Source of the DNA: Candidatus Brocadiia bacterium
GTDB lineage: Bacteria; Planctomycetota; MHYJ01; JACQXL01
Length of the DNA stretch: 5,725 nt
Direction of reading: 5' to 3'
Assembly (NCBI GenBank): GCA_020062035.1
Contig: JAGUXD010000091.1
Coordinates: forward strand, 1 to 5,725
Part shown: one piece after another, positions 3,752 to 5,570 of the stretch
How the letters are laid out: each line of letters opens with the position of its first letter
How positions within the stretch are numbered: the first letter of the stretch is position 1
Program-made: the position numbers and the translations under genes
Notes under the pieces: model-generated
What the model was told of the DNA's origin: nothing
The model's database searches: none
The model's input: only the letters and a program-made list of their open reading frames with translations

Positions 3752-3777
3752 TCCGCCTTAGGCCTTGCCTGACTCCA

Positions 3778-3849
3778 TACCCCCGGGGGGAATTGAACCC
3801 CCATCTACGGCTTCGGAGGCCGGCGCTCTTTCCATTGAGCTACGGGAGC
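3778..3849 (-). tRNA. tRNA-Arg, anticodon CCG (reads CGG)
   Basis: A complete 72-nt cloverleaf reads on the minus strand. The acceptor stem GCTCCCG (3849-3843) pairs with CGGGGGT (3785-3779), including G1-U72 and U3-G70 wobbles. The D-arm is GCTC/GAGC with loop AATGGAAA. The anticodon loop CTCCGAA (3818-3812) places CCG at 3816-3814 after U33. The variable region has 4 nt. The T-arm is GGGGG/CCCCC with loop TTCAATT, and the discriminator is A73. C35 and an A at position 20 fit known arginine identity elements. The outermost anticodon-stem pair is a C27/U43 mismatch. CCA is not encoded (TGG follows A73), so it must be added after transcription. The gene starts 6 bases after the stop of the pseudopilin on the same strand, so it may be processed from that transcript; no promoter of its own can be placed in the gap. 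Confidence 0.93.
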
Positions 3850-3855
3850 ATAAAA

Positions 3856-4926
3856 CTACCTTATCTTCACGCTTCCCCAGAATGTTACTTCTAATATGAA
3901 TGAATCTCTGGCTGATGATGAGATGAATGTCAGGGGTGAAACTGGTTGCACAAGATTGCCCTTTTTGTCAAACTGTATCATTAGCGGTGTGGCTAATGCA
4001 GAGGCGCCTTCAATTATAGATATATCCGATTCTAATGTTATCTTGTCAATTTCAGCAATTACAGAGATTTTTACTTCATCAATCATTCCTATGAAAGAAC
4101 TTACCGGGTTGCTAACCATTACATCCCATTTGCCTGGCATAACAGCCGCGATACCATTTTTACTTCCAACAAACATATTATTCACATATAAAGATAATAT
4201 GCCGGAGTTATCAGAGAGAGTATAATCAGGTTCATAAGTCATCACAATATGGGTCCAGCGTTGATATGGGATAAACGCAGGAGATGTTCTTGTTGACAAT
4301 CCTCCATAGGTTATTTCAATACTGTCATCATCTTCAATAGAAATTCCGCCATTAGATAACTCAATAACTGTTCTTTTAGTTGGCAGGGCGGGTGGTGTCG
4401 CAGAAATCCAGCATTCTATTGAGATACCCTGGTTTTGAGTCATAATGGGAATAGTGCCACATTGCGCCCAACCTATTGAGGTTATCATAAAACAATTGCC
4501 AATCCGTCCATCTACGAAAATATCCGCATCTCCATTTAACTGGGCGTTATTCCCAAAGGCACCTGTAGAATTACCATTTGTATTATCTTCAAAATGCCAC
4601 AAACCCACGGTTCTACGAGCACAGGTGTATATCCGTCTCTCAACAGGGTCAATAACGAGTGTGCTTGTTCCTTTTTCGGTAATGGCGTTACTTCTGGTGT
4701 AGCGTAACATAGAAACAATCTCGCCACGAACTCCCTGAAAACCCATTTGTCTTCCGGAGAAAGAGAGAACCGCTAATCCTACTCCAGCCATTACGGCAAT
4801 TATGGATAAGACAACTAATAATTCAACTAAAGAGTAAGCCCCGTTAGAGATAGGTTGCCAGAGGCAACCGTCATCCCGCTTTAGCGGGATTATCTCTAAC
4901 GGATAAGCCGTGTGATTTTTCATCAT
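3856..4926 (-). CDS. GspH/FimT-like pseudopilin carrying a LamG-like domain, with an in-frame palindromic insertion in its leader
   Basis: This is probably a minor pseudopilin of a type II secretion or type IV pilus-like system, inserted in the inner membrane and assembled after prepilin-peptidase cleavage. The start is taken at ATG 4926 (356 aa); ATG 4923 is adjacent, and a TTG at 4947 would overlap the upstream gene. Residues 32-54 (SLVELLVVLSIIAVMAGVG...) form the conserved hydrophobic helix with Glu5 equivalent E35. The expected cleavage site follows Ala30 rather than the usual Gly. EIVSMLRYTRSNAITEKGT (69-87) and the end IQFDKKGN...ILEVTFWGSVKIR resemble the GspH/FimT core. Between them, about 109-289 reads as a concanavalin/LamG-like jelly roll: LWHFEDNTNG, VDGRIGNCF, GISIECWIS, QRWTHIVMTY, LSLYVNN, FIGMIDEVKISV. 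Residues 9-31 come from a nested palindrome and its duplicated target site. It lies 11 bases after the GspG-like gene, in an apparent operon, and is followed by tRNA-Arg. The substrate or ligand is unknown. Confidence 0.85.
   Translation of the reverse strand: MMKNHTAYPLEIIPLKRDDGCLWQPISNGAYSLVELLVVLSIIAVMAGVGLAVLSFSGRQMGFQGVRGEIVSMLRYTRSNAITEKGTSTLVIDPVERRIYTCARRTVGLWHFEDNTNGNSTGAFGNNAQLNGDADIFVDGRIGNCFMITSIGWAQCGTIPIMTQNQGISIECWISATPPALPTKRTVIELSNGGISIEDDDSIEITYGGLSTRTSPAFIPYQRWTHIVMTYEPDYTLSDNSGILSLYVNNMFVGSKNGIAAVMPGKWDVMVSNPVSSFIGMIDEVKISVIAEIDKITLESDISIIEGASALATPLMIQFDKKGNLVQPVSPLTFISSSARDSFILEVTFWGSVKIR
4835..4909. repeat. Direct repeats TAAGCC bounding the palindromic element (putative target-site duplication)
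   Basis: TAAGCC occurs at 4835-4840, touching the left arm of the element, and at 4904-4909, one base beyond the right arm. On the coding (minus) strand both copies read GGCTTA and encode Ala-Tyr in the same frame: T-A-Y before the insertion and G-A-Y after it. Six bases alone could match by chance. The joint fit with element edges and protein alignment makes a duplication the better reading. Confidence 0.65.
4841..4902. mobile_element. 62-bp nested palindromic element (three-way-junction shape), inserted in a pseudopilin gene
   Basis: The outer arms CCGTTAGAGATA (4841-4852) and TATCTCTAACGG (4891-4902) are perfect 12-bp inverted repeats. They enclose two perfect hairpins: GGTTGCC/GGCAACC (4853-4859 and 4863-4869, loop AGA) and ATCCCGC/GCGGGAT (4873-4879 and 4884-4890, loop TTTA). 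Only GTC (4870-4872) is unpaired at the junction. TAAGCC flanks it directly at 4835-4840 and, one base away, at 4904-4909, like a 6-bp target-site duplication. Removing 69 bp gives back a standard pseudopilin N-terminus. It encodes no protein of its own, so any movement must have relied on an enzyme supplied from elsewhere. Calling it mobile is an inference from the flanking repeats and the clean ancestral reading frame. Confidence 0.8.
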
Positions 4927-4937
4927 ATGAATTAGTT

Positions 4938-5570
4938 TTAGTTCCAACTATTGATATCGTTATTTAAGCCGTTGTTATTCTGTTCATCAATGCCGATTGA
5001 CCAGAGTTGAAAACTAAAAGGAGAGAAATAAACAGAGGTTTTAGGACTCATTTGTGGGCTAATCGCTTCCCCAATTTTTCTAAAAGAGTACTCACTGCCT
5101 TTACCAGGATTATCATAGTCCCGGGAATGGAAATAGACAATAGGATTTCTGAATTCGTCAACGATTTCTCTCAGTTGCGTATCGCCAAACCACCAATTAG
5201 TAGGCGGAGTAGCGGTACTGTCTCCATCTAAATTAGTATATTTATCTTCTTTAATTTCCAATAAAAATGGTCCGCCTTTATTCTGGTCAGAAAGACAGGC
5301 AACCACGGACTCAATACCGTTATTTACTCCGTTAGATGTACCCATATACAAATCAGAAAGGTCAGTTGGCGGGTAATCTCCGTAGACCGCATAATATGCC
5401 TCTAAAGAACTACGGATGTTATAAATAAGTGCTCGCGTTGCCTGTTCTTTGGCTTTGCCTTTAGCAGGCAGAAGACCGACTGCTAATACGGTTGCCAGAA
5501 AACTAATAATTGCCAGAACTAATAACAACTCCAGTAAAGTAAACCCTCTGTTTTTTATCCGATAGAGCAT
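4938..5570 (-). CDS. GspG-like major pseudopilin of a type II secretion system (or related type IV pilin)
   Basis: The 210-aa protein has a classic class III signal: a short basic leader MLYRIKNRG (1-9), cleavage expected after Gly9, then FTLLELLLVLAII with Glu5 equivalent E14 and a hydrophobic helix to about residue 34. A helical continuation AKEQATRALIYNIRSSLEAYY (40-60) leads into VYGDYPP (62-68), typical of GspG-type pseudopilins. The C-terminus, LWSIGIDEQNNNG...NDINSW, matches the GspG pattern of a calcium-site loop followed by D-I-x-x-W. A middle section of about 100 residues, with FRNPIVYFHSRDYDNPG (140-156), replaces the shorter GspG loop. In GspG the protein forms the shaft of the periplasmic pseudopilus. 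AAGGAG (5583-5578 on the minus strand) stands 7 bases before the ATG, a strong ribosome binding site. The stop lies 11 bases ahead of the next pseudopilin, so the two are likely co-transcribed. Type IV pilin is the alternative. Confidence 0.9.
   Translation of the reverse strand: MLYRIKNRGFTLLELLLVLAIISFLATVLAVGLLPAKGKAKEQATRALIYNIRSSLEAYYAVYGDYPPTDLSDLYMGTSNGVNNGIESVVACLSDQNKGGPFLLEIKEDKYTNLDGDSTATPPTNWWFGDTQLREIVDEFRNPIVYFHSRDYDNPGKGSEYSFRKIGEAISPQMSPKTSVYFSPFSFQLWSIGIDEQNNNGLNNDINSWN

Follow-up and report, generated by a model that had tools for sequence, protein, structure and literature searches.

We propose, with good confidence, that the 65-bp segment at positions 4839-4903 of the window (the whole 5,725-nt stretch of DNA that was analysed, contig C172 of a 1.19-Mb draft genome, G000, that is 64% complete) is a non-autonomous element with terminal inverted repeats and a 4-bp target-site duplication (TSD), placed in the predicted leader-coding part of a pseudopilin gene and likely moved in trans by a GIY-YIG nuclease. 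With somewhat less assurance, we favor the wider reading that the window copy is a miniature derivative of a new class of DNA transposon of uncultured bacteria, in which an autonomous element of about 280 bp would encode an 86-residue GIY-YIG nuclease as its sole protein, with terminal repeats that form part of the end of the gene, would insert at prepilin cleavage sites and start codons and would stay invisible to its host through the action of the prepilin peptidase or through a restarted start codon. The role of the nuclease as the mover of the element is one that we infer from sequence comparison.

Read directly from the sequence, the element lies in frame within a pseudopilin gene, and the features of the region are the following.

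3777-3850, minus strand: tRNA-Arg gene (anticodon CCG), between an isoleucyl-tRNA-synthetase-like gene and the pilin genes
3856-4947, minus strand: host gene, a GspH-like pseudopilin with a Laminin_G_3 domain, the open reading frame being listed from TTG
4835-4838, no strand: left copy of the target-site duplication TAAG, from the sequence and the 4-bp rule seen in relatives
4839-4852, plus strand: left terminal inverted repeat CCCCGTTAGAGATA, 14 bp, equal to the family consensus by comparison with relatives
4853-4869, plus strand: subterminal hairpin A, GGTTGCC-AGA-GGCAACC, with GGTCGCC..GGCGACC as its equivalent in relatives
4870-4872, plus strand: junction GTC, from the sequence
4873-4890, plus strand: hairpin B, ATCCCGC-TTTA-GCGGGAT (ATCCCGCTTTAGCGGGAT)
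4891-4903, minus strand: right terminal inverted repeat TATCTCTAACGGA, one base shorter than the consensus
4904-4907, no strand: right copy of the target-site duplication TAAG, from the sequence
4938-5570, minus strand: GspG-like pseudopilin gene (GFTLLELLLVL), without an insert, adjoining the host gene

The outer arms CCGTTAGAGATA (4841-4852) and TATCTCTAACGG (4891-4902) pair perfectly, and the 12-bp outer repeat, the two 7-bp hairpins and the three-base junction described in the initial annotation were all found in place. The predicted fold of the 65-bp element has an energy of -40.3 kcal/mol (RNA parameters), and an outer repeat of at least 12 bp arose in none of 200,000 single-letter shuffles of the element. 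As had also been claimed, removal of 69 bp from the gene restores a pseudopilin start, giving MMKNHTAYSLVELLVV, and the inserted frame contains no stop codon; across the insert the gene reads MMKNHTA-YPLEIIPLKRDDGCLWQPISNGA-YSLVELLVV. The likely start of the host gene is the ATG at 4926 or 4923, and the element is placed between this start codon and the prepilin motif, with the mature protein predicted to begin at YSLVELLVV immediately after the insert. That N-terminal motif (residues 37-56 of the listed frame) scored 20.0 bits against Pfam N_methyl, slightly below the 21.2 cut-off, and 17.4 bits against NCBIfam IV_pilin, above the 16.3 cut-off. Pilin relatives lacking the insert, which the annotation had proposed looking for, do exist: from 30 fetched loci, 12 related pilin N-termini were inspected, and the 23 inserted residues are absent from all of them. 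A search of the window against Rfam gives the tRNA alone, without a match to the element. Elsewhere in the same genome, a longer repeat ending ..TATAGTCCCGCTTTAGCGGGATTATCTAAAGCAAGGACTTTTTGGACAG stands near several contig ends (C185, C164, C122, C109, C93, C80, C72 and C34), where an insertion sequence present in many copies probably terminates.

Copies of the element are dispersed within and between genomes. Allowing up to one mismatch, we counted CCCCGTTAGAGATA 10 times in the window genome, 8 to 86 times in each of seven relatives (reversed control, 0 to 9) and 18 to 87 times in each of seven genomes reached via other records (control, 0 to 3), these being counts of ends, two per intact copy. 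An exact search with the 19 bases that span an end and the start of its hairpin returned 70 matching stretches in named genome records, titled Planctomycetota, Omnitrophota, Elusimicrobia or Endomicrobiales, Ratteibacteria and, in one case, Taylorbacteria. The left half of the window element has relatives in another genus at an E-value of 2.6e-10, while a match in genome G024 was rejected as covering the inner palindrome alone. Among viral contigs there was one match, a 56-bp copy with the TSD TCTG (L258:555-610, IMGVR_UViG_3300031898_000117). The initial annotation, which had suggested an undescribed in-frame mobile element and a search for further copies with varied flanks, was therefore right in outline: such copies were found, and the element is inserted, dispersed, palindromic and accompanied by a target duplication. 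Together with the insert-free N-termini, these copies mean that the annotation's own refuting condition does not refute it. We assign a vanishingly small probability to chance as the origin of the nested palindrome, or to ordinary variation in the leader of this one pilin; against both stand the shuffles, the match in another genus and the 12 insert-free N-termini, and the dispersed copies refute them.

The target duplications were scored on 123 elements, defined as ends paired in the fetched loci with flanks ignored. An exact 4-bp duplication was found in 70 of them, as opposed to 2 of 123 when the four bases just beyond served as the control, and duplications of 3, 5 and 6 bp numbered 5, 5 and 0, respectively. 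All 66 exact duplications scored fit YNNR, with TAAA, TCAA and TGAA the commonest (folded with their complements), and are preceded by G and followed by C at 52%; outside G-YNNR-C the target consensus is weak. Both flanks are YNNR in 106 of the 123 pairs overall, often even where the duplication is not exact, as would be expected if copies have recombined. For the window copy, the initial annotation had correctly noted TAAGCC on both sides (4835-4840 and 4904-4909), but its interpretation as a 6-bp duplication does not agree with the family. Because the family repeat starts with CCCC and the family duplication is 4 bp, the window duplication is TAAG rather than TAAGCC, and the CC of the left TAAGCC is part of the element and that of the right part of the host gene. 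Strict pairing scored this copy as non-exact because its right terminal repeat lacks one base of the consensus. By size, 116 of the 123 elements are at most 191 bp and the remaining seven are 264-287 bp. Longer candidates were also discarded, L235:3653-4610 because its pairing is weak and the extended L245 and L253 spans because they combine neighboring copies.

Many copies carry a short hairpin beside one or both ends, most commonly GGTCGCC..GGCGACC, of which GGTTGCC..GGCAACC in the window is one compensated variant. The hairpin arms co-vary, with 4.78 of 5 inner pairs compared with 3.85 when arms were swapped between copies (maximum 4.16 in 1000), as scored on the 64 of 246 ends that fit an anchored pattern and with kinship among copies still in the statistic; this covariation supports a conserved structure. 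Double-hairpin copies of 73 bp, built to the same plan as the window copy, were found in another genus (L125 and L136). The inner palindrome ATCCCGCTTTAGCGGGAT is also dispersed on its own in the window genome, with 56 matches on both strands at up to two mismatches (reversed control, 0), a count in which palindromic sites can score on both strands, and it was probably added to the window copy. Some of its copies (for example, L015, L030 and L031) apparently lie within coding frames. At a different locus (L047, genome G003), the interior of an element has an AAGGAG and an ATG in frame via the right repeat into the downstream coaD-like gene (MNISNRVRKAIYAG..), to which this copy may lend translation signals.

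All seven elements longer than 191 bp (in G002, G005 twice, G006, G099, G103 and G104) hold one gene, which encodes the 86-residue GIY-YIG nuclease, both G005 copies being broken by stops or a frameshift. The protein scores 59.2 bits against PF01541 (cut-off 22.6), and the one solved relative found for it is BH0048 (PDB 1zg2, E-value 1.1e-10). At its end the gene reads ..KNRLKRFLSLTG, in which LSLTG is the in-frame translation of the terminal repeat CTATCTCTAACGGGG. A search returned 7212 protein relatives at an E-value of 1e-3; in the best 120 of these, 113 have the repeat-coded tail and 97 of the 113 stop within 8 residues past it. Among five intact copies, dN/dS was 0.13-0.24 in nine of ten pairs, the tenth being saturated, which indicates purifying selection on the nuclease. 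Short and long forms are linked by L318, a 126-bp element flanked by TTGA on each side, whose ends are perfect or nearly so. It retains codons 1 to 23 of the nuclease gene and is alone among the 116 short elements in that a recognizable piece of this gene was detected in it (E-value 0.01). In addition, L304, a 171-bp GIY-YIG element with variant repeats and a flanking TGAA on each side, has an internal deletion.

Extending the analysis from the element to the gene, we considered 60 GIY-YIG loci, which are the matches with a locus minus very short fragments and repeats of listed places, although a few places are still listed twice (e.g. L265/L299, L274/L296 and L262/L309). Flanking repeats were present at 19 of the 60, versus 11 of 857 random control placements, with the repeats at L264, L295 and L326 matching at only 10 of 12 bases and possibly due to chance. 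They include other terminal repeats of like style, among them CCCCGTGAAATA, CCCCGCCCTTCC, CCCCGCACCTTTT and CCCTGTTAGAGTT. Convincing exact TSDs among the 19 were limited to L289 and L301, with L264 a weak third. The other 41 loci have no such terminal repeats, and the GIY-YIG gene family is thus not always mobile. In the window genome, 64% complete, there was no close GIY-YIG copy, and the sole PF01541 match lies within a 437-aa frame; an intact nuclease copy is present in G002, another genus of the same family. Across the window's phylum, a nuclease match at an E-value of 1e-25 was found in only 8 of 392 genomes, and in G101, G105, G108 and G109, which carry copies of the element, nuclease matches were distant or absent. 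No GIY-YIG relative was found in viral contigs, and plasmids gave two distant nuclease matches, one named yazA.

In several respects the short copies resemble bacterial miniature inverted-repeat elements (MITEs), being short, with terminal inverted repeats, a target duplication of constant length and many dispersed non-autonomous copies. They could accordingly be ordinary MITEs that depend on the DDE transposase of some unseen insertion sequence acting in trans, with the GIY-YIG genes as captured passengers, an explanation that we consider unlikely. Terminal repeats with a constant 4-bp duplication are the classic DDE mark, multi-copy insertion sequences are often lost at the contig breaks of draft genomes, so that a transposase could have been lost, and only two of the seven long GIY-YIG copies have an exact TSD, which is missing in the other five. 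Yet among 57 adjacent inward repeat pairs in four genomes, all spanned 49-191 bp save one of 280 bp, which holds the GIY-YIG gene, and one spacing of 6706 bp, with none between 0.3 and 6 kb and hence no size class for a DDE transposase between repeats; other long spans with matching flanks, in the fetched loci, were composites or weak pairs, as noted above. The gene-bearing relative encodes a GIY-YIG nuclease rather than a DDE enzyme in every one of the seven long elements, these elements share their ends with the short copies, and one short copy retains the start of the gene. The end of the protein at a repeat-coded tail also argues against passengers, as do the several distinct terminal repeats at GIY-YIG genes, which would be unexpected for passengers of one insertion sequence, and prepilin cleavage sites recur as targets, unlike in MITEs. 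Insertion sequences of the IS5/IS701 type, which use DDE transposases, make a 4-bp YTAR TSD, whereas the duplications of this element are YNNR, with the three commonest forms given above.

The initial annotation had instead drawn a parallel with Rickettsia palindromic elements (RPEs), which is not supported, given the 4-bp YNNR duplications and the nuclease gene in the full-length form. The likeness lies in the palindromic structure and, for the window copy, in-frame residence inside a protein gene; the hosts differ, as does the way in which the insertion would be tolerated, through leader removal. Fusions of RPEs with protein genes are among the matters described in a review (PMC10969869). 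We regard an RPE-like family without a nuclease, spread as coding repeats, as very improbable: it would account for a short palindrome in frame within a coding gene, but not for exact 4-bp duplications or for many copies per genome across several phyla, and it is contradicted by full-length GIY-YIG copies with matching ends and TSDs (L289 and L292).

The in-frame insertion recorded by the initial annotation is correct; what went unnoticed there is that the insertion point coincides with the predicted prepilin cleavage site and that this position is recurrent for the family. Eleven of the 123 elements lie exactly before a prepilin motif (one in the window, four in G006, three in G103, two in G104 and one in an Omnitrophota genome), where random points in that DNA would give 0.3; a twelfth match to the rule, L140, was spurious and was dropped by eye. 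At L253, three neighboring pilin genes have a copy each, the third with an interrupted right end. The L289 element is full-length; its two repeats are perfect and are flanked on each side by the TSD TTTA/TAAA. An in-frame fusion joins it to a prepilin, the GIY-YIG protein running through RFLSLTG directly into FTFLEISLVILVIG. Sixteen sequences related to this prepilin, 54-79% identical to it across the mature part, lack a GIY-YIG part, and one relative, P0121 (77%), carries GDLSLTG in its place, a short end of the leader that is coded by the repeat; thus, one pilin family is recorded in empty, short-filled and nuclease-filled versions.

Among the matches listed for the L289 fusion, a query that itself held the prepilin and so favors prepilin-bearing matches, 83 have the GIY tail and 37 fit the type IVa prepilin motif, although two of the 37 (P0145 and P0201) look spurious and three more have the motif further downstream. 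With the GIY part alone as query, none of the 113 tail-bearing proteins in the best 120 of 7212 runs into a prepilin. In six of the 83 (P0156, P0159, P0164, P0166, P0167 and P0175), the tail is joined to a GQxxxE motif resembling that of type IVb pilins or TadE proteins, which suggests that other prepilin-peptidase substrates may be targeted as well. Five proteins (P0182, P0186, P0190, P0192 and P0209) have the GIY tail followed by a second repeat-coded-looking stretch and then a pilin-like start (..SNGGFVALMTVIV), and look as if two elements had entered one site.

Start codons form the second kind of site. Under a rule of an NTG overlapping the target, 12 of the 70 exact-duplication elements match, compared with 1.9 expected under the same loose rule, and at least one match is doubtful. 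The plus-strand match at L289:2248 is probably spurious, since the prepilin-site count already includes this element, read from the opposite strand, and the matches at L115 and L227 use GTG, the G at L115 coming from a neighboring copy. Both L292 and L301 lie in start codons with the TSD TGAA; at L301, the GIY-YIG frame now opens with the host ATG, and a GTG that overlaps the stop of that frame allows a restart of the host gene.

Both kinds of site could reflect survival alone, with random insertion at YNNR and copies persisting where they are harmless, as in start codons, prepilin leaders and intergenic DNA, a reading that is compatible with the GIY-YIG transposon, of which it concerns one step, and to which we give serious weight while rating it a little below even. 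Start codons and prepilin leaders both tolerate in-frame or restarting inserts, and the consensus outside G-YNNR-C is weak; against survival alone stands the large enrichment at the exact cleavage position, and GFTL codons can spell GGGTTTACC, a match to the target consensus, from which a true target preference is also expected.

In the mechanism that we propose for the GIY-YIG transposon, the nuclease would cut a palindromic G-YNNR-C-like target, and probably also the CCCNG ends of the element, which would then be joined in and gap-filled to leave the 4-bp duplication; short copies such as that of the window would be mobilized in trans. A palindromic YNNR target of constant 4-bp length fits cutting by a symmetric dimer with a 4-base stagger. 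The cleavage motif of I-TevI is CNNNG, with which the beginning of the repeats, CCCNG or close to it, agrees. Known GIY-YIG nucleases leave short 3′ overhangs, and these do not alone account for the 4-bp duplication, which counts against the nuclease model. At prepilin sites, the inserted frame ends ..LSLTG/FTLIE or ..ISNGA/YSLVE, and cleavage by the prepilin peptidase at the slash would release a normal mature pilin. In the window, where the copy precedes the predicted cleavage between A and Y, the peptidase would remove insert and leader together and leave the mature pseudopilin unchanged; leader removal by the host would thus make the insertion nearly silent.

Other known systems share single features with this element. 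Homing endonucleases of the GIY-YIG group, of the I-TevI type or the free-standing Seg type, have the same catalytic domain (the TIGR01453 match is weak and below cut-off), but here no intron or intein was seen, and there are terminal inverted repeats, dispersed copies with duplications and non-autonomous derivatives. The single-domain GIY-YIG proteins of the UPF0213/YhbQ-YazA group (COG2827), with BH0048 as the solved relative, differ in that the element proteins end in the repeat-coded RFLSLTG and are flanked by terminal repeats. The IS200/IS605 and REPIN-RAYT systems likewise have subterminal hairpins and small non-autonomous palindromes, but their HUH/Y1 transposases make no target duplication, whereas the present family has an exact 4-bp one. 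Inteins also combine an endonuclease inside a host protein with removal at the protein level, as would occur here, but the element has no self-splicing, and its removal would need the host prepilin peptidase and would affect the leader only.

The window element is most likely best seen as a miniature copy of a GIY-YIG-nuclease transposon, one that favors prepilin leaders and start codons and that most likely represents a transposon class whose cuts are made by the nuclease. To our knowledge, no bacterial transposon class is run by a GIY-YIG nuclease, as opposed to DDE, HUH, tyrosine and serine enzymes, and we found no element of this kind in the titles and abstract openings returned by our searches of the open-access literature, although a prior account in a preprint or subscription journal may exist. 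If true, this would be the first such class that we know of, and if the GIY-YIG protein is the mobilizer, the element would be among the smallest autonomous DNA transposons. It could also help to explain the many small GIY-YIG genes in some candidate-phylum genomes, as reflected in the 7212 relatives; in a groundwater study, the genes transferred from Patescibacteria include a GIY-YIG gene (PMC12455944). More broadly, the element suggests a low-cost niche for mobile DNA within protein genes, namely the leader peptide that the host itself cuts off.
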